A stretch of DNA of 64,000 bases, taken from NCBI GenBank assembly GCA_017642965.1, contig JAEPOJ010000005.1:58721-122720 (forward strand). Direction: 5' to 3'. This DNA is from Phycisphaerales bacterium. Lineage in GTDB: Bacteria; Planctomycetota; Phycisphaerae; Phycisphaerales; UBA1924. Below are positions 37,571 through 55,387 of this stretch, one piece after another; within the stretch, counting starts at the first letter, position 1, and each line of letters starts with the position of its first letter. Under the pieces are notes generated by a model that made no database searches, was not told the origin of the DNA, and saw only the letters and a program-made list of their open reading frames with translations. Made by a program: the position numbers and the translations under genes.

Positions 37571-37598
37571 CGCGGTCTCCCCGCCGCGTCGGATTTTT
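37571..37598 (+). terminator. Terminator-like hairpin with GCGTCGGATTT tail, copy 1
   Basis: CGCGG, eight bases, CCGCG, then TCGGATTTTTC. It shares this structure and tail with the element at 37908, and lies between the 35-aa membrane gene and the gene at 37628. Confidence 0.5.
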
Positions 37599-37907: not shown

Positions 37908-37994
37908 CGCGGGTCGAAAGTCCCGCGTCGGATTTCTTGTGCGTGTCTTGCAACCACCGTACAGGTCTACGCACAGTGCCCCGCGTTGGGGCAC
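37908..37994 (+). terminator. Terminator-like hairpins with alternative pairing, copy 2
   Basis: CGCGGG, eight bases, CCCGCG, then TCGGATTTCTT (37908-37937). The 5' arm can instead pair as GACCC (37899-37903) with GGGTC (37911-37915), so two mutually exclusive hairpins are possible. A second perfect hairpin GTGCCCC-GCGTT-GGGGCAC follows at 37976-37994. Confidence 0.45.
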
Positions 37995-38870: not shown

Positions 38871-39737
38871 ATGCTCATTGACCCAGACTTCTTTGACCAC
38901 TGGCGAACACGAATGCTGGTTGACCTGCTCAACGACGAATGCGCGCCGATCTACCTCATGCGGCTGTGGGCACACTGCCAGCTTCGCAAGGCCGATCGGT
39001 TCAAGCTCCCGGCGTCGGCGCTGAAAGCGATCTGCCGCTATCAGGGGGACGCTGACGAGTTCGAGCGGGCCATGATCGAAAGCGGATGGGCGGAACGCAA
39101 CGGTTCCGAGATCATCGCTACCGGCTGGGCAGAGCGGAACGCCAAGCTTGTCAAGGCATGGGAGAACGGCGGCAAAGGCGGTCGCCCGAAAACCCAACGG
39201 AAACCCAAGCGTAACCCAACGGAAACCCACGAGGAACCCACGGCTAACCCAACGGGAACCCAAACTCAAATTGGGTTAACCCACGAGAAACCAATAGGAT
39301 TAGATAAGACAGGAGAGGATGAAGACAAAGAGAACGCTGCGCGTTCTTGTCTCGACGGCGAAACGCCGCCTCAACACGAACCGCCCAAATCTGCCATGAA
39401 GCGAGCCACCCCCGTCAAGTGGGACGGGGAGCACGGGTTCATTGCGTGCTCGTTCCGCCGATTGCAGTGGGCGAAGGCGTACCCGCTCGTGGATCTGACC
39501 CACGAACTCGACAAGGCGCACGCCTGGTACATCGACAACCCCGGCAAGCGCAAACGAAACCACGCCCGCTTTCTCGGCAACTGGCTCTCGAACGCACAGG
39601 AGCGTGCGGAGCAGGACGCGAAGGCGGGCAAGCGAACTGGCGGCCACCTGAACGACCAGTACACGATCCAACCGGACGACCCGAACGACAACCCGCTCGC
39701 GAAGGCGCGGGCACAGCAGGCGAGGAATGCAGGATGA
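38871..39737 (+). CDS. Phage replication initiator/replisome organiser-like protein with internal iterons
   Basis: 288 residues. The N-terminal 100 residues look like a winged-helix domain of the kind in phage replication proteins ('DPDFFDHWRTRMLVDLLNDE', 'LMRLWAHCQLRKADRFKLPA'). A low-complexity linker (about 105-145, rich in Asn, Pro, Thr, Lys) is encoded by tandem 11-bp DNA repeats. The C-terminal part resembles other phage initiators ('FRRLQWAKAYP', 'RNHARFLGNWLSNAQ'). In lambda O-type initiators the origin iterons lie inside the gene, as here. It is followed by a DnaC-like loader two genes on. The GGAGG before ATG 38871 fixes the start. A direct homologue cannot be named from sequence alone. 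Confidence 0.72.
   Translation: MLIDPDFFDHWRTRMLVDLLNDECAPIYLMRLWAHCQLRKADRFKLPASALKAICRYQGDADEFERAMIESGWAERNGSEIIATGWAERNAKLVKAWENGGKGGRPKTQRKPKRNPTETHEEPTANPTGTQTQIGLTHEKPIGLDKTGEDEDKENAARSCLDGETPPQHEPPKSAMKRATPVKWDGEHGFIACSFRRLQWAKAYPLVDLTHELDKAHAWYIDNPGKRKRNHARFLGNWLSNAQERAEQDAKAGKRTGGHLNDQYTIQPDDPNDNPLAKARAQQARNAG
39191..39267. repeat. Seven tandem 11-bp iterons, candidate phage replication origin
   Basis: Seven consecutive 11-base units all begin AACCCA: units at 39191, 39202, 39213, 39224, 39235, 39246 and 39257. Three of the seven read AACCCAACGGR. The period is one helical turn and not a multiple of three, so selection is on DNA, not on the encoded peptide. A palindrome TGGGTTAACCCA follows at 39272-39283 and then an A+T-richer stretch to about 39315, suitable for unwinding. 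Confidence 0.8.
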
Positions 39738-40093
39738 GACGCAGTTACGAATGGATTCAATCACTCAAGCCGGGCGATGAAGTCGCCATTGTGAGGGGGG
39801 CGGGCATGGGCCGGGGCGCATGGCTGCACACGGTCGAACGCCTTACCAAGACGCTGGTTGTCGTAGACGGGCACAAGTTCCGGAAGCGGGATGGCCTTGA
39901 GCCGGGATCAAATGCCTGGGGCAGCCGAAGGATCAGTAAGCCCGAAGATGTCGCCGATTTCATCGAGGAGACCAAGATTAACGAGGCGCAGAGCCTGGTG
40001 CGATACAGGGTTGAGCGAGACTACAGCAAACTCACGCTCGACCAGTGCGAGGCGATCAGGGGCATCCTCGAAGGTGTGGAGGCATCCTCATGA
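39734..40093 (+). CDS. Phage hypothetical protein, KOW/SH3-like start
   Basis: 119 residues. 'LKPGDEVAIVRGAGMGRGAW' and 'VVVDGHKFRKRDG' suggest a small beta-barrel; the C-terminal half is helical ('KLTLDQCEAIRGILEGVEAS'). ATGA overlaps couple it to the initiator upstream and the ATPase downstream, so it may belong to the replication module. No family recognised. Confidence 0.65.
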   Translation: MRRSYEWIQSLKPGDEVAIVRGAGMGRGAWLHTVERLTKTLVVVDGHKFRKRDGLEPGSNAWGSRRISKPEDVADFIEETKINEAQSLVRYRVERDYSKLTLDQCEAIRGILEGVEASS

Positions 40094-40692
40094 CCCCCAC
40101 CCTCTCCCCAAACCACACCCCAGAGGCACGCGCTACGCCAATCGAACGGGCGATCGCACACGAGTTCCCGTTCAAGCACTGCAACAGACTCGCAGAGCCG
40201 GGGTTCAAGTGGAACCGGCACCAAGCACAAGTGATCCGCCAAGCGCAGGTCATCATCGACCACGGCGGCATGGTGGTCGTGCAGGGCGTGTTCGGCAACG
40301 GCAAGACCCAGATTGGAGCACGGTTCGGGTGCCAGTGGTTCAAGGAACTGCGGCGCGGCCCGTCGCCGCGATACTTTGTGAGCATCGAACTGCTCGACGC
40401 GCACCGCGACTCATACGGCGAGAAGCACGAATCACCGATGGTGCAAGCGGAATCGTGCGGCCTGCTTGTGCTTGATGACCTGCGCGTACCGACTGGCAAG
40501 ACCGACCACGACTATGAGCAGTTGAACAAGATGCTGGACATTCGCTACCGATCGGAACGCCCCACGCTGATCCTTACGAATCTCGGTGACGCTGGCCTGA
40601 ACAGCGTGCTCGGCGAAAAGACAATCGACCGGATCAGCGACGGCGGCGCCCTGATCGAACTGCAAGGGAAGTCGATGAGGGGGGTGGCATGA
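40090..40692 (+). CDS. DnaC/IstB-like helicase-loader ATPase
   Basis: 200 residues. Walker A 'VVQGVFGNGKTQIG' (about residue 75), Walker B 'GLLVLDDLRV' (about 128), sensor 1 'TLILTNLG' and a likely arginine-finger 'KTIDRISDGG' are in AAA+ order. It lacks a long N-terminal helicase-binding domain but has 'FKHCNRLAEPGFKWNRHQAQ' there. Phage loaders of this type place the host replicative helicase at the origin. Coupled by ATGA at both ends to its neighbours in the replication module. Confidence 0.85.
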   Translation: MTPTLSPNHTPEARATPIERAIAHEFPFKHCNRLAEPGFKWNRHQAQVIRQAQVIIDHGGMVVVQGVFGNGKTQIGARFGCQWFKELRRGPSPRYFVSIELLDAHRDSYGEKHESPMVQAESCGLLVLDDLRVPTGKTDHDYEQLNKMLDIRYRSERPTLILTNLGDAGLNSVLGEKTIDRISDGGALIELQGKSMRGVA

Positions 40693-41084
40693 GCACCCAA
40701 CCCCTCAACCCCGAAATCATCCGGGCGCTCGTGCTCGACGACTGCAACGTGACGCTCTCGGATCTCATGGGCAACATGCGGGGCGGACGCATCGTGTTCG
40801 CTCGATCGGTTATCGCCGTGGTGCTACGCGACCACACCGAGCTTTCGTACCCGGAGATCGGCAAGCTGATCGGCAAGCGTCATTCGACGATCATCGACGC
40901 CGAGAACCGGCTGCGTGCGGGCGACCACGACACCGATGCGTGCGTGATCTTGGGTTGCGATACGACGGCGATGGATTACGCGAACTACGTGTGGGTTCGC
41001 GCAGACGAGAAATCGAAGGTTTACCACGACGACAGGGCGAGGTTATACCGGCTCGGTGATGGGCCGGGGAAAGGGGCGGCTTGA
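40689..41084 (+). CDS. Stand-alone DnaA domain IV-like DNA-binding protein
   Basis: 131 residues. Residues 30-75 match the C-terminal DnaA domain: 'FARSVIAVVLRDHTELSYPE', then 'IGKLIGKRHSTIIDAENRL', which corresponds to the DnaA signature in which 'GxRDHSTVxxA' contacts DnaA boxes. AAA+ and DnaB-binding domains are absent. It should bind specific DNA sites such as the origin iterons or DnaA boxes. It is next to a DnaC-like loader and two genes from the iteron-bearing gene, so it probably helps initiate phage replication or competes with host DnaA. Confidence 0.82.
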   Translation: MSTQPLNPEIIRALVLDDCNVTLSDLMGNMRGGRIVFARSVIAVVLRDHTELSYPEIGKLIGKRHSTIIDAENRLRAGDHDTDACVILGCDTTAMDYANYVWVRADEKSKVYHDDRARLYRLGDGPGKGAA

Positions 41085-42206: not shown

Positions 42207-42517
42207 GTGATAGGTGGAAACAGTGTATCTCTGAGGCGTTTGAGGATGCCGGTATTGAGGCGTCCGACCAGCAGATTGATATCGTCACTGCTTGGGCCGA
42301 GAGCGAGCACGAACATGGGCATATTTCCAGCGGGAATAGCTGTATCCCCCATCCGCTTGAAGCAGAGAACGCACGGCTAAAAAGTCAGATCGCTACCGAG
42401 CGGGAGAAAGTGACATGTCCGGCGTGCCGAGGAGAAGGCCGGATTATCACATATGGAGTTCGCTCGGGCAATATGCACTGTACCAAGTGCAACGGTGAAG
42501 GTCGGGTGTCGCCATGA
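42203..42517 (+). CDS. Phage protein with DnaJ-type CxxCxGxG zinc knuckles
   Basis: 104 residues. The C-terminus holds 'CPACRGEGRI' and 'CTKCNGEGRV', two CxxCxGxG units as in DnaJ's central zinc domain. The N-terminal half is a helical acidic region. It has no J domain. Such small proteins are common in phages; role unknown. Confidence 0.68.
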   Translation: MSDRWKQCISEAFEDAGIEASDQQIDIVTAWAESEHEHGHISSGNSCIPHPLEAENARLKSQIATEREKVTCPACRGEGRIITYGVRSGNMHCTKCNGEGRVSP

Positions 42518-43077
42518 CCTTCCCCCCCACCCAGCGAACGCCGGATGAGGCGGAGAGATGGATCGCCATACAGGGCTATGAAGGTTCATATGAAGTCTCA
42601 TCGTTTGGCAGAGTGAGGTCTGTGGATCGCCGTGTCCGTTACGGCCACGGGAAGCGGCTCATTAAGGGTCGAATCCTTAAGCCCCTCCCAGACAAGGATG
42701 GGTACCACCTGTGCTGCTTATGGAAATGCAACAAGGGGAGTACCCAGAAGATCCACCGATTAGTGGCGAATGCATTTCTTCCACTGCCCGGCGACGGCGA
42801 CGACCAAGTGAATCACCTGAACGGCGACAAGCAGGACAATCGAGCAGTCAACCTTGAATGGGTCTCTCGGCGAGAGAATACAAGACACGCCATTCAAAGC
42901 GGCCTCATGGTTCCCGAGTCGGGTAGCAAGCTGAACAAATGGCAAGCTCGGGTCATTCGGAAACTGGCAACTGGACACGCAAGTGTATTTACCTATCGCC
43001 AGATCGGTGACCTATTTGGTGTAACACCTTCATCTGTTTGCCATATCGCGAAGGGGGTCACATGGAACAAGGAATAG
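42514..43077 (+). CDS. NUMOD4/HNH endonuclease, free-standing
   Basis: 187 residues. The NUMOD4 start 'WIAIQGYEGSYEVSSFGRVR' is followed by an HNH core ('DQVNHLNGDKQDNRAVNLEW'). A C-terminal helix-turn-helix ('RQIGDLFGVTPSSVCHIAKG') gives DNA specificity. This is a homing-type endonuclease as often found between phage genes. It sits between the zinc-knuckle gene and the exonuclease gene and overlaps the latter by 16 bases. Confidence 0.88.
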   Translation: MTFPPTQRTPDEAERWIAIQGYEGSYEVSSFGRVRSVDRRVRYGHGKRLIKGRILKPLPDKDGYHLCCLWKCNKGSTQKIHRLVANAFLPLPGDGDDQVNHLNGDKQDNRAVNLEWVSRRENTRHAIQSGLMVPESGSKLNKWQARVIRKLATGHASVFTYRQIGDLFGVTPSSVCHIAKGVTWNKE

Positions 43078-44021
43078 CCAACCGAAGATCACCACTCGAA
43101 GCGCCGCCCCCCGGCATTTACCGTGATATTTCACCTGAGGAATACCACAGCTTTGACGCGCTCAACGCAACGACCATCGGGCATTTCGTCCGGTCGGGAA
43201 TGCACGGCGCGTACTACCTCAACCAGACCCAGGACGACGACCCGCCGACGCCCTCAATGCTCTACGGGACGGCGATGCACACGGCGTACCTTGAGCCCGA
43301 GAAGTACCGGCAGACGGCGTATACGCCAACCGTCGAGGTCAAGGTCGGCGATGACGTGATACACAAGCCCATCCTTGCGGACCAGTGCCAGTGGAAAACC
43401 CACAAGCCGATCGCGGATGAGCACCCGGACAAGCTGATCCTGCACGCTGAATGGGCGGAACGCATCGAGGCCATGCGGAAACAGCTCGACGCACACCCGC
43501 GTGCGAACATGCTGTTTAACGAGGTCGAGGGCACGAACGAGCTCACGCTGGTTTGGCATCTCAAGGTCAAGGGCCAGAAGATCCCCTGCAAGTGCCGTGT
43601 TGATCGTTTCCTGCCGTCGTTTGTTCCGACCGCCGATCACGACACGCCCGTGTCGGGCATCGCGGATCTGAAAACCAGCTCAAGCATCGACCCGCACAAG
43701 TTCGAGCGTTCGATCTGGGACTACGGGTATCACCGCCAAGCCGCGTGGTACTTGCTCGGAGCGATTGCACACAACCTGATCCCCGAGCAACTGCACGACT
43801 TCTCGTATCAGATCGTCGCGGTTGAGAAAACAGCACCGTACCCCGTGACCGTGTTCCCGCTGACGGCGGGCACGATCCAACAGGGGATTAACGAATGTCG
43901 CGTGGGCTTGCTTGCCTACGCGAAGTACCGAATGCACGGCATAGCGCCGGGTCCGTGCGATTCGTACATACCCGCCACCCTCCCGGCATACCTGATTGAA
44001 GATGAGAGGAACGCGATATGA
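43062..44021 (+). CDS. PD-(D/E)XK exonuclease (RecE/YqaJ-like)
   Basis: 319 residues. 'LNATTIGHFVRSGMHGAYYL' and 'PSMLYGTAMHTAYLEPEKY' open the nuclease domain; 'GIADLKTSSSIDPHKFERSI' holds the catalytic D...LKT (D-x-K) pair, followed by 'YGYHRQAAWYLLGA' with the QxxxY motif. This is the PF12684-like exonuclease fold that partners RecT. It should degrade 5' ends to make 3' single-strand overhangs. ATGA overlap with recT downstream confirms the pair. Confidence 0.88.
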   Translation: MEQGIANRRSPLEAPPPGIYRDISPEEYHSFDALNATTIGHFVRSGMHGAYYLNQTQDDDPPTPSMLYGTAMHTAYLEPEKYRQTAYTPTVEVKVGDDVIHKPILADQCQWKTHKPIADEHPDKLILHAEWAERIEAMRKQLDAHPRANMLFNEVEGTNELTLVWHLKVKGQKIPCKCRVDRFLPSFVPTADHDTPVSGIADLKTSSSIDPHKFERSIWDYGYHRQAAWYLLGAIAHNLIPEQLHDFSYQIVAVEKTAPYPVTVFPLTAGTIQQGINECRVGLLAYAKYRMHGIAPGPCDSYIPATLPAYLIEDERNAI

Positions 44022-44938
44022 GTAACCAACTGGCACCCAAAACACCCGGAGAGCAGTTCGTAGATTCGGTGTTCACGCCAAGCAGGATGGACATTGTTGC
44101 AGAGGCGTGTTCGGGAAACCGATTCGTCACGCCCGACAAGGTGAGGGCGACGATCGCAGAGGCGATGATTCGTGAGCCCAAGCTGGCGGAGGCATACCCG
44201 CCGTCCGTATTCCAGTCCGCACTACTCGCCGCCCGCCTCGACCTCGACGCGAGCGGGTACCACAACGGAGCCGCGTTTGTGGTTCGTTGGAACAGTCGCG
44301 AGAAGCGGTCTGAGTGCAACCTGCAAATGGGCTACGGGGCAATGGTTGACCTTGCCACCCGAGACGGGCGAATCCAGTCGTTCACCGTCCAAGAGGTCTA
44401 CGACTGTGATGAGTTCGAGTACAAGCTGGGCACGCAGCGGTTTATCAACCACATCCCAGCCAACGAGCGACCAGAGAAGGCGAAGCTGACCCACTGCTAC
44501 GCAATCGCTTGGTTCCCCGGAGGGGGGTATGAGTTTGAGGTGATGACTCGCAAGGACATCGAGTACATCCGCGACACCTATACCGCGAAGTACAAAGACG
44601 GGAACATTATCAGCCCGGCATGGAAGTATTCGTTTGGGCGAATGGGGTGCAAGACAGTGCTGAATCGCCTGATTAAGCGACTGCCCGTCAACCCTGTTCT
44701 AGCCGAGGCGATTGAGCGTTCGCATGTCGCAGACGGCATGGACTCGTTCAACCCGCAACGCATGGCCGTCGCCAACACGTCAATGGAGGAAGCGGGCAAC
44801 TCGATTGCCGGGATGCTTGACGCGGACATCGACGACGACGAACCAGAACGCGACCCGGACACAGGCGAGGTTATTCCCGACGAGGTTGACAGCACCGACC
44901 TGTTCGAGGGCGAGGGTGCGGAGAGGGGGTACAACTGA
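44018..44938 (+). CDS. recT: RecT-family single-strand annealing protein
   Basis: 306 residues. The RecT core (about 20-230) shows 'PSVFQSALLAARLDLDASGY', 'CNLQMGYGAMVDLATRDGRI' and 'WKYSFGRMGCKTVLNRLIKR'; the last 60 residues are acidic and disordered. The protein coats single-stranded DNA and promotes annealing for recombination-dependent replication and concatemer formation. The exonuclease is immediately upstream. Confidence 0.93.
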   Translation: MSNQLAPKTPGEQFVDSVFTPSRMDIVAEACSGNRFVTPDKVRATIAEAMIREPKLAEAYPPSVFQSALLAARLDLDASGYHNGAAFVVRWNSREKRSECNLQMGYGAMVDLATRDGRIQSFTVQEVYDCDEFEYKLGTQRFINHIPANERPEKAKLTHCYAIAWFPGGGYEFEVMTRKDIEYIRDTYTAKYKDGNIISPAWKYSFGRMGCKTVLNRLIKRLPVNPVLAEAIERSHVADGMDSFNPQRMAVANTSMEEAGNSIAGMLDADIDDDEPERDPDTGEVIPDEVDSTDLFEGEGAERGYN

Positions 44939-54580: not shown

Positions 54581-55387
54581 TCACCCGATCGTCAACGCCC
54601 CCGTACCCTGGAAGTTCACGCTCACGCTCACCTGAGAGCCGATCGCGCTGCTGATCGTCCAGCCAGTCTCAAACGCATCACCCGAGTACACACGCGAACC
54701 GTCCACCCGGATGCTGATCGCCGTCGCCTCGGGTGTTTCCAGATCGTCAGGCGTGCCCGCCGCCGCAACCTCAAACAGCGACGAATCGCCGTCAGTCGTC
54801 AGCACTCCGGACACCACGAACGAGACCGTGACCAACCACCGATCGCCGACCTGACCATTCACCGAAACGCCGGTCACGACGATGTTGCCCGCGAGTTCGT
54901 TGTCATTCGTGCTCTCGGTCGAGATGCGGAACGTCGCCGAACCACTGGTACACGCGCTGATCGCCGTCGTGTCGTCTACGAGGCATTCATACGAACCCGA
55001 ATAGGTGTAGAGGCCCGGCAGGAAGCTCATCCACGTCGGGGCCGTGCTCGCCTGTGCGGTCACGTCGAGCGCCGCGATCGAACCCGTGATGGTCCAGCCC
55101 CGCACGTTCGTGGCGTACCCGCTTCCAAACGTCACCAACCCGAGATGCCCAGAAGCCGCGCCGCCAGCCGGGAACCGGCCATTGAACGAACCAGACCACG
55201 ATTGCAGGCCCGCGATGTTCGTGGCCGCAACCGGGGCGGTCGATGCGAATGGGGTGGTGTCAAACGACTCACCCGTGATCGTCAGGGACGCCGAATACGG
55301 GTCCGTGCCCGAGTTGATGAGGTAGTGCAGGGGCTTGCCCGTGTCACTCGACGAGATGAGGCCCGTCAACCCTACTGTTGGTGCCAT
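54581..55387 (-). CDS. Major tail tube-like protein
   Basis: 268 residues, all-beta, rich in Ser/Thr/Gly ('SGSFNGRFPAGGAASGHLGL', 'WTISSAIGSQVSVSVNFQGT'). The pattern and the position between tail terminator and tape measure are those of siphovirus tail-tube proteins. No tail-assembly chaperone gene lies between it and the tape measure; the space is occupied by the opposite-strand cassette. Confidence 0.75.
   Translation of the reverse strand: MAPTVGLTGLISSSDTGKPLHYLINSGTDPYSASLTITGESFDTTPFASTAPVAATNIAGLQSWSGSFNGRFPAGGAASGHLGLVTFGSGYATNVRGWTITGSIAALDVTAQASTAPTWMSFLPGLYTYSGSYECLVDDTTAISACTSGSATFRISTESTNDNELAGNIVVTGVSVNGQVGDRWLVTVSFVVSGVLTTDGDSSLFEVAAAGTPDDLETPEATAISIRVDGSRVYSGDAFETGWTISSAIGSQVSVSVNFQGTGALTIG

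Follow-up and report, generated by a model that had tools for sequence, protein, structure and literature searches.

A tandem array of 11-bp iterons and the unstable purine tract behind it, both lying within the linker-coding part of a phage initiator gene, are very probably the replication origin of the prophage that carries them, with the iterons bound by the product of that same gene and the tract acting as unwinding element. We put the probability of this reading at roughly 0.84, because its anatomy matches that of the origins of Tuc2009 and TP901-1, SPP1 and the lambdoid phages, and because the gene's least stable 50-mer adjoins the array. Judged by sequence comparison, the array is selected as DNA rather than as protein, and many other phages have related repeats at the corresponding site, which in some of them falls immediately beyond the gene.

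The iteron array and its gene

The window, as we call the whole stretch of 64,000 nucleotides analysed here, looks like part of a prophage inside a chromosome (GC 61.6%): up to about 35.2 kb the annotated genes are host-type, and beyond that point they include replication, recombination, head and portal genes. Behind the initiator gene, the order is ProQ-C-like, DnaC-like, DnaA-IV-like, homing-type HNH, exonuclease VIII-like and RecT (Table 1); the homing-type gene encodes a NUMOD4-HNH endonuclease (42514-43077) and separates the replication genes from the exonuclease VIII/RecT pair (43110-44938). Two other repeats were seen in this region: CCGCGTCGGATTT occurs twice, in identical form, upstream of the initiator gene (37584-37596 and 37923-37935), and a 23-bp tandem repeat of 2.6 copies (54813-54872) lies in the late-gene half of the prophage. 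GC skew, across the part of the prophage examined, shows no switch at the array or at 39 kb.

Table 1. Features of the initiator gene and its downstream neighbours, in coordinates of the window
Feature	Position	Strand	Basis
Initiator gene, 288 aa: predicted winged-helix N domain, linker, helical C domain	38871..39737	+	ORF and phrog_9474
GGRPK codons, residues 103-107; motif ahead of the array in relatives	39177..39191	+	
Seven tandem 11-bp iterons starting AACCCA	39191..39267	+	
TTGGGTTAACCCA: eighth unit (39278) joined to an inverted half-unit	39271..39283	.	
Gene's least stable 50-mer, candidate DNA unwinding element	39285..39334	.	nearest-neighbour stability
Ninth, terminal half-unit AACCAATAG, in phase, 11 bp past the eighth	39289..39297	+	
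Purine tract, five 5-bp units GATTA GATAA GACAG GAGAG GATGA, part of candidate unwinding element	39298..39322	+	
Small gene, ProQ C-terminal-like domain	39734..40093	+	PF24203, E 1.7e-6
DnaC-like helicase loader	40090..40692	+	phrog_50, E 6e-21
DnaA domain IV-like DNA-binding protein	40689..41084	+	PF08299, E 3e-14

The initiator gene begins with an ATG at 38871, preceded by GGAGG. A replication-type gene had been predicted here, and profile comparison agrees: residues 44-222 of the window protein match phrog_9474 (replication initiation protein; E 2.9e-5), a profile also matched by 31 of 36 family members. This is the sole PHROG match of the window protein. None of the O-like profiles matches it, and searches with Pfam and NCBIfam profiles gave zero matches; of 36 relatives, 7 match the O-like phrog 678 and 6 the O-like phrog 345. 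In an AlphaFold2 model built with 36 aligned sequences, the N domain (residues 11-90) has pLDDT blocks of 95-98 and is predicted to be a winged helix from the order of its elements, helices and then two strands. The linker that follows (about residues 101-190) has blocks of 38-65 and is probably disordered, and behind it comes a helical C domain. Array and tract together make up codons 107-151, within this low-confidence linker, whose composition is rich in N, P, T, K and E (NPTETQTKPN type).

Foldseek against viral models gave four matches at E <= 0.001, two of which are a replisome organizer (E 1.5e-4) and a primosomal protein; weaker matches are to a DUF1376 protein (E 0.008) and a Lin1244-type protein (E 0.04). 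Against the PDB, Foldseek gave zero matches at E <= 0.001 and some weak winged-helix matches, with phage T4 MotA (its winged-helix domain) at the top (E 0.02, probability 0.97); a search of the PDB by sequence gave no meaningful match (regucalcin, E 0.1). Across 36 aligned initiators, the G, G and R of the GGRPK motif are invariant and the P nearly so, and the motif resembles the core of an AT-hook.

The original prediction of seven consecutive 11-base units beginning with AACCCA, three of them in the form AACCCAACGGR, is correct. The seven cores start at 39191, 39202, 39213, 39224, 39235, 39246 and 39257, making six 11-bp steps, and the units at 39191, 39213 and 39246 have the longer form. 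An eighth AACCCA follows at 39278, after a step of 21 bp. The palindrome that had been noted behind the array is likewise present, as TGGGTTAACCCA at 39272-39283, and a GGTTAACC-type junction also occurs in four relatives (L490, L542, L545 and L560). The array is not due to chance, because a four-unit pattern that matches the window at four overlapping positions matches 0 of 100 dinucleotide shuffles; no second four-unit array is found elsewhere in the window. Tandem Repeats Finder lists the array three times, with scores of 74 (period 11), 88 (period 22) and 93 (period 33), the top three of 51 rows. When synonymous codons are drawn afresh at the frequencies of the gene itself, so that the protein is unchanged, 200 recodings of the 150-nt linker of the window reach at most 5 copies of AACCCA and 2 steps of 11, versus 8 and 6 in the actual sequence.

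Relatives were gathered by protein homology to the N domain (80 of 245 loci kept; 39 non-redundant after dropping those more than 90% alike), using a query alignment that included some array-bearing proteins and part of the linker, with the search patterns themselves within the N domain. The same repeat, which it had been proposed to seek in related phages, is present in most of these genes: at least three AACCCA lie in the 330 nt after GGR(P) in 31 of the 39 non-redundant initiators. Absence of the repeat from close relatives, which had been named beforehand as grounds for rejecting the idea, is thus not what is observed. Steps between them measure 11 bp in 99 of 137 cases and 22 bp in 18 of 137.

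The unstable tract and the genes downstream

A more A+T-rich stretch had been noticed behind the array, and it is here, at 39285, that the 50-mer of lowest stability in the gene begins; its neighbour starting at 39284 ranks within the bottom ~0.1% for stability among the 50-mers that start between 34001 and 63900. In the window alone, the 5-bp period of the purine tract is weak (lag-5 p 0.04). Most family members have AACCGATAAGAGAAGAGAAGATAAG or a near form of it after the last unit, and AACC[GAT]ATA is found at most 200 nt past GGR in 32 of 40, window included. In the family, the 45 nt behind the array have a purine content of 0.735, versus 0.55 and 0.51 elsewhere in the gene, and an A+T content of 0.59, versus 0.43 for the gene; in 29 of 40, the purine content of this tract is at least that of every other tested stretch. 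Compared with shuffles, the family tract has z scores of 20.5 at lag 5 and 15 at lag 10. Compared with amino-acid-fixed recoding, the values are 18.6 and 14.3, and lags 3, 7, 8, 12 and 13 are raised too (z 6.5-10.7), below lag 5. Two relatives with the same letters (L543 and L544) have a polypyrimidine tract with Ser-rich codons about 105-160 nt after the GGR codons, which suggests that DNA strand asymmetry, and not peptide charge, may be what is kept.

If the array and tract form an origin, several initiator molecules would bind the 11-bp AACCCA iterons via the winged-helix N domain, a role that we infer for this domain because phages whose initiators have the N domain and GGRPK alone keep the array. 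Since the spacing equals one helical turn, the bound initiators would stack on one face of the helix. The resulting nucleoprotein complex may open the adjoining low-stability purine tract, and the neighbouring DnaC-like loader, as gene content suggests, would place DnaB helicase on the opened strand. Such a loader had been predicted downstream, and the match to phrog_50 supports it; DnaC-type NCBIfam models match as well, with scores under their cut-offs. The loader type of the window is not conserved with the array: 4 of 81 relative contigs contain it. Among nine full-length relatives that were scanned, the ORF after the initiator encodes DnaB in four, a DnaC-like protein in two and an unknown protein in three. 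Relatives of the ProQ-C-like gene lie beside related initiators in 0 of 84 relative loci.

It could be argued that the array is mainly an operator, by which the initiator represses or times its own operon, with replication starting elsewhere. A DNA-binding-type N domain together with an array in its own gene would fit autoregulation, and from its place past the start codon the array could serve as a roadblock. We nevertheless consider this unlikely, because an adjoining unstable 5-bp purine tract and a helicase or loader gene (behind six of the nine scanned relatives) are features of an origin, and because Tuc2009 and r1t share the layout, the Tuc2009 gene being annotated as containing the origin. 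The two roles, operator and origin, can coexist.

Recognition of the repeat by host DnaA or by the DnaA-IV-like protein of the phage, which would make this a DnaA-type origin, is very improbable. The gene for a DnaA domain IV-like protein does lie 1.4 kb downstream of the array (the C-terminal part of TIGR00362 matches its product with E 5e-13, under the cut-off of that model), and the original prediction had considered the protein as a partner of the repeat. This pairing is not supported: the gene is present in 1 of 81 distinct relative contigs (flanks up to 2.5-3 kb), and TTATCCACA, TTATNCACA and TTWTNCACA, three forms of the DnaA box, have no match in 34001-64000.

The repeat in other genomes, inside and outside reading frames

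Viral contigs were scanned with three-unit patterns (AACCCA at periods 11, 10 and 12, and the permuted hexamer ACACCA), which were compared by what their listed matches lie in. Among the matches listed, GGRP is found at most 240 nt upstream, in any frame, in 82 of 120 for period 11, in 59 of 120 for period 10, in 17 of 117 for period 12 (L035, L077 and L110, loci already counted, being excluded), and in 0 of 120 for the permuted hexamer. Period-10 arrays also follow GGRP, and 11 bp is therefore not the sole spacing. Nor is the 5-bp element general. Of the 82 listed period-11 flanks with GGRP, 33 are purine-rich (lag 5 z 8.6, lag 7 z 7.6), and the 49 that are not purine-rich have z scores of 7.3 at lag 7 and 8.7 at lag 11, with no lag 5; in many cases these have 7-bp AACCA repeats instead. 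Repeats of a 7-bp AACCAYW type were seen behind AACCCA in initiators without a purine tract, such as L009, L015, L080 and others, and in L855 and L856.

Of five array-bearing proteins scanned from outside the family of the window, three have a DUF1376 N domain (L031, L018 and L101), one has a DUF6291 N domain (L076), and one has no Pfam match. A DUF1376-type query led to five named phages. In each of Vibrio 1.183.O and Thalassomonas BA3, AACCCA occurs three times, with steps of 32 and 22, and 7-bp AACCA repeats are present as well. In Chlorobiaceae CV-1-33, a single 11-bp AACCCA step is accompanied by AACCAT repeats; in Xanthomonas Rb1, the linker has two units at a distance of 33 bp and lacks a 7-bp AACCA-type tract; and the linker of Vibrio ValSw3-3 has no AACCCA. 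In Vibrio phage 1.183.O, an annotated CRISPR spacer (L855:1158-1187) overlies two AACCCA units of the DUF1376 gene. Two Bacteroidota phages were compared as well. In Cellulophaga phi10:1, AACC occurs four times at 11-bp steps, and a purine tract is visible by eye; Leeuwenhoekiella Arctus_1 lacks the AACC array and, by eye, retains the purine tract.

In bacterial genomes, GG[RK] lies upstream of the four-unit pattern in 14 of 117 among the matches listed, and four of the loci with GG[RK] upstream (L585, L668, L676 and L677) are nonetheless not initiator-like. By eye, initiator-like matches, a few of them without GG[RK], occur in Aquabacterium, Paludibacterium, Oscillospiraceae and Akkermansiaceae, and further ones in Edaphobacter, Oxalobacter, Sphingomonas and Gimesia contigs. 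Many of the other matches listed are 11-bp AACCCA satellites unrelated to initiators. Satellites with no evident initiator were seen in Phycisphaerae and other Planctomycetota (L573, L583, L606, L615, L635, L663 and L682) and in Bacteroidales (L575, L598 and L604). Because such satellites lie away from initiators, the AACCCA core is not exclusive to origins, and position is the constant feature. The pattern is not enriched in genomes of the phylum, where it occurs in 1 of 294 (the window's own), as does the permuted pattern (1 of 294). The planctomycete host named in the original prediction is putative: PSD1, the single marker family tried, has no match in the genome, and it is uninformative, since all 14 control genomes lack a match too.

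These satellites, at many unrelated bacterial sites, would be compatible with a neutral minisatellite that grew by slippage. For the array in the initiator gene we hold that explanation to be extremely improbable, given that the repeat occupies the same place beside the N domain in divergent phages. Its units vary outside the core, with core and step kept, and steps of 22 and 33 represent lost units with the register kept. The core itself is variable (AACCTA, CAACC, GGAACC), and still the step stays.

That the repeat is conserved as DNA had been proposed from its period, and this proposal is borne out by the recoding of 40 linkers with amino acids fixed, by codon phase and by arrays that are not translated. 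Over the 40 linkers, 181 AACCCA are observed versus 35.2 expected, and 105 steps of 11 versus 3.2. Taken singly, 24 of the 40 linkers have a unit count above all 200 recodings, and 16 do not. The arrays start in all three codon phases (8, 22 and 8 of 38).

In one phage group the initiator consists of the N domain and GGRPK alone, and the array begins just past the stop codon. Such out-of-gene arrays amount to a natural experiment, in which the role of the DNA is separated from that of the protein. Loci of this kind were sought by protein (80 of 94 kept, 79 of them with enough flank; they are close kin, 12 of them non-redundant); members of the group as a whole are L016, L043, L056, L084, L087, L099, L105, L019, L093, L053, L086 and L775-L854. 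At least three units follow the stop codon in 69 of the 79 loci, and in all of these 69 the coding part is free of the array. Steps measure 11 bp in 228 of 243 cases. Among the 12 non-redundant loci, seven have AACCCA arrays; the other five carry different forms there (AACCTA or AACCAA units as judged by eye, some of them degraded). The gene after the array is of DnaB type in the one locus scanned (L775; DnaB_C, E 2e-35) and resembles that type in six further loci inspected. The second element of this group is not the 5-bp tract; it is made of GATA-type repeats that also occur as inverted copies, for example CTAGATAGATAGAATATCTATC.

The notion that selection acts on a low-complexity linker of the protein, with the DNA repeat as a by-product, could appeal to the low model confidence and skewed composition of the linker and is assigned a negligible probability, being refuted as the whole story by the excess of units with amino acids fixed, by the use of three codon phases with a period that is no multiple of three, and by the arrays past stop codons.

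Comparison with known origins

The original prediction described the array as an origin in the style of lambda O. Lambda iterons are longer than 11 bp. Of this description, the layout stands and the protein family does not: the window protein has no O-like match, and its neighbour is a DnaC-like loader where lambda has P. The lambdoid ori consists of iterons and an AT-rich tract within gene O, with four iterons in lambda and six in Stx phages (PMC7466680). Lambda and Stx phages share with the window this placement of both elements midway along the initiator gene. In SPP1, gp38 binds direct repeats in its own gene 38 (oriL), next to an AT-rich unwinding element and with gp39 as loader, as described in PMC6316719. 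SPP1 differs in having a second origin, whereas the window has no second four-unit array.

Plasmid iteron replicons have iterons of ~17-22 bp and a binding protein of the RepA/RepE type. The window, by comparison, has a period of 11 bp and a protein without any Pfam match. Proteins of the DUF1376 (YdaU), DUF6291 and Lin1244/Lin1753 types are a further point of comparison, and members of DUF1376 and DUF6291 have an AACCCA array behind GGRP. Rac YdaU, considered as a member, was rejected, having no AACCCA array. The linker of E. coli Rac ydaU (L128:10120-10977) contains, by eye, TGTTCAAACA-type repeats, direct and inverted, at the usual place of the array.

DnaA-trios have a period of 3. The unwinding region of bacterial oriC carries repeated short single-strand motifs, the DnaA-trios or the DnaD recognition element, the latter built of TnnT motifs (PMC10201434); the 5-bp tract may have a parallel in both. 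It is conceivable, if rather doubtful, that tailed-phage initiator genes from several host phyla share a bipartite origin code. In such a code, iterons with an AACC core or of lineage-specific form, one helical turn apart, would be followed by a second tandem repeat whose unit is 5 bp (purine) or 7 bp (AACCA), and neither repeat would keep step with the codons. Together with the GGRPK linker they would form a mobile module, which could pair various winged-helix N domains with various C domains and could lie within the reading frame or beyond it. As the phage counterpart of the DnaA-trio or DnaD recognition element (DRE), the 5-bp repeat would then serve as a landing strip for the initiator or helicase co-loader on opened DNA. 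The present findings provide a sequence rule by which one could locate origins in uncultivated phages (GGRPK, at least three AACC units 10-12 bp apart, and then a 5- or 7-bp repeat), and on this reading odd low-complexity linkers in many phage replication proteins are origins in disguise.

Origins within genes are already known, as in lambda, SPP1 and Tuc2009. In the literature searched, which comprised titles and abstract openings and had most subscription journals and the primary r1t and Tuc2009 papers outside its scope, we found no description of the array or of the 5-bp tract, and in particular none of the AACC/11-bp iteron as a shared feature, of its occurrence in coding as well as non-coding form, or of the 5-bp element; absence from print is not implied. 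A review of phage replication modules was reportedly published by Weigel and Seitz in 2006.

The replisome organizers of Tuc2009 and TP901-1 bind repeats within their own genes, which serve as ori, according to PMC8965321. Tuc2009 Rep has four CAACC at 11-bp spacing, in a gene whose record carries the note 'contains origin of replication', and r1t ORF11 has four GGAACC at the same spacing; in both, a purine tract with a 5-bp period is present (0 of 5000 shuffles each). In the family of these two phages (80 of 337 kept; 50 non-redundant and of sufficient length), the 11-bp lag before the tract has a z score of 18 and the 5-bp lag in the purine tract one of 20, the latter being absent from the purine-richest control stretch (C-terminal part). 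At least two AACC steps of 10-12 bp occur in 7 of the 50 non-redundant linkers, and the lags hold for the set as a whole; the pair of 11-bp and 5-bp repeats is visible singly in Tuc2009, r1t and phiRgIBDN1. TP901-1 Rep and the Lactobacillus A2 ori were tried as members and set aside, having other sequences; TP901-1 Rep showed no such array.

At the protein level, hhalign of the N domain of the window family with that of the Tuc2009/r1t family gave a probability of 4.4%, homology thus not being detected by this comparison; tblastn of the window protein with gp42 of phiRgIBDN1, a relative of Tuc2009 Rep, gave a match at E 8e-4 (22%, residues 48-252, linker included). The C domains differ, with Rep_Org_C and Phg_2220_C in Tuc2009 and r1t and no Pfam match in the window protein, as does the iteron core, which is AACCCA in the window. 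Tuc2009 (Rep2009, ORF16) and r1t (ORF11) are nevertheless like the window in having repeats behind the N domain within the initiator gene, an AACC core, an 11-bp spacing and a 5-bp tract. That a 5-bp repeated tract is shared with r1t and Tuc2009 makes the action of the initiator on the opened strand a testable question.
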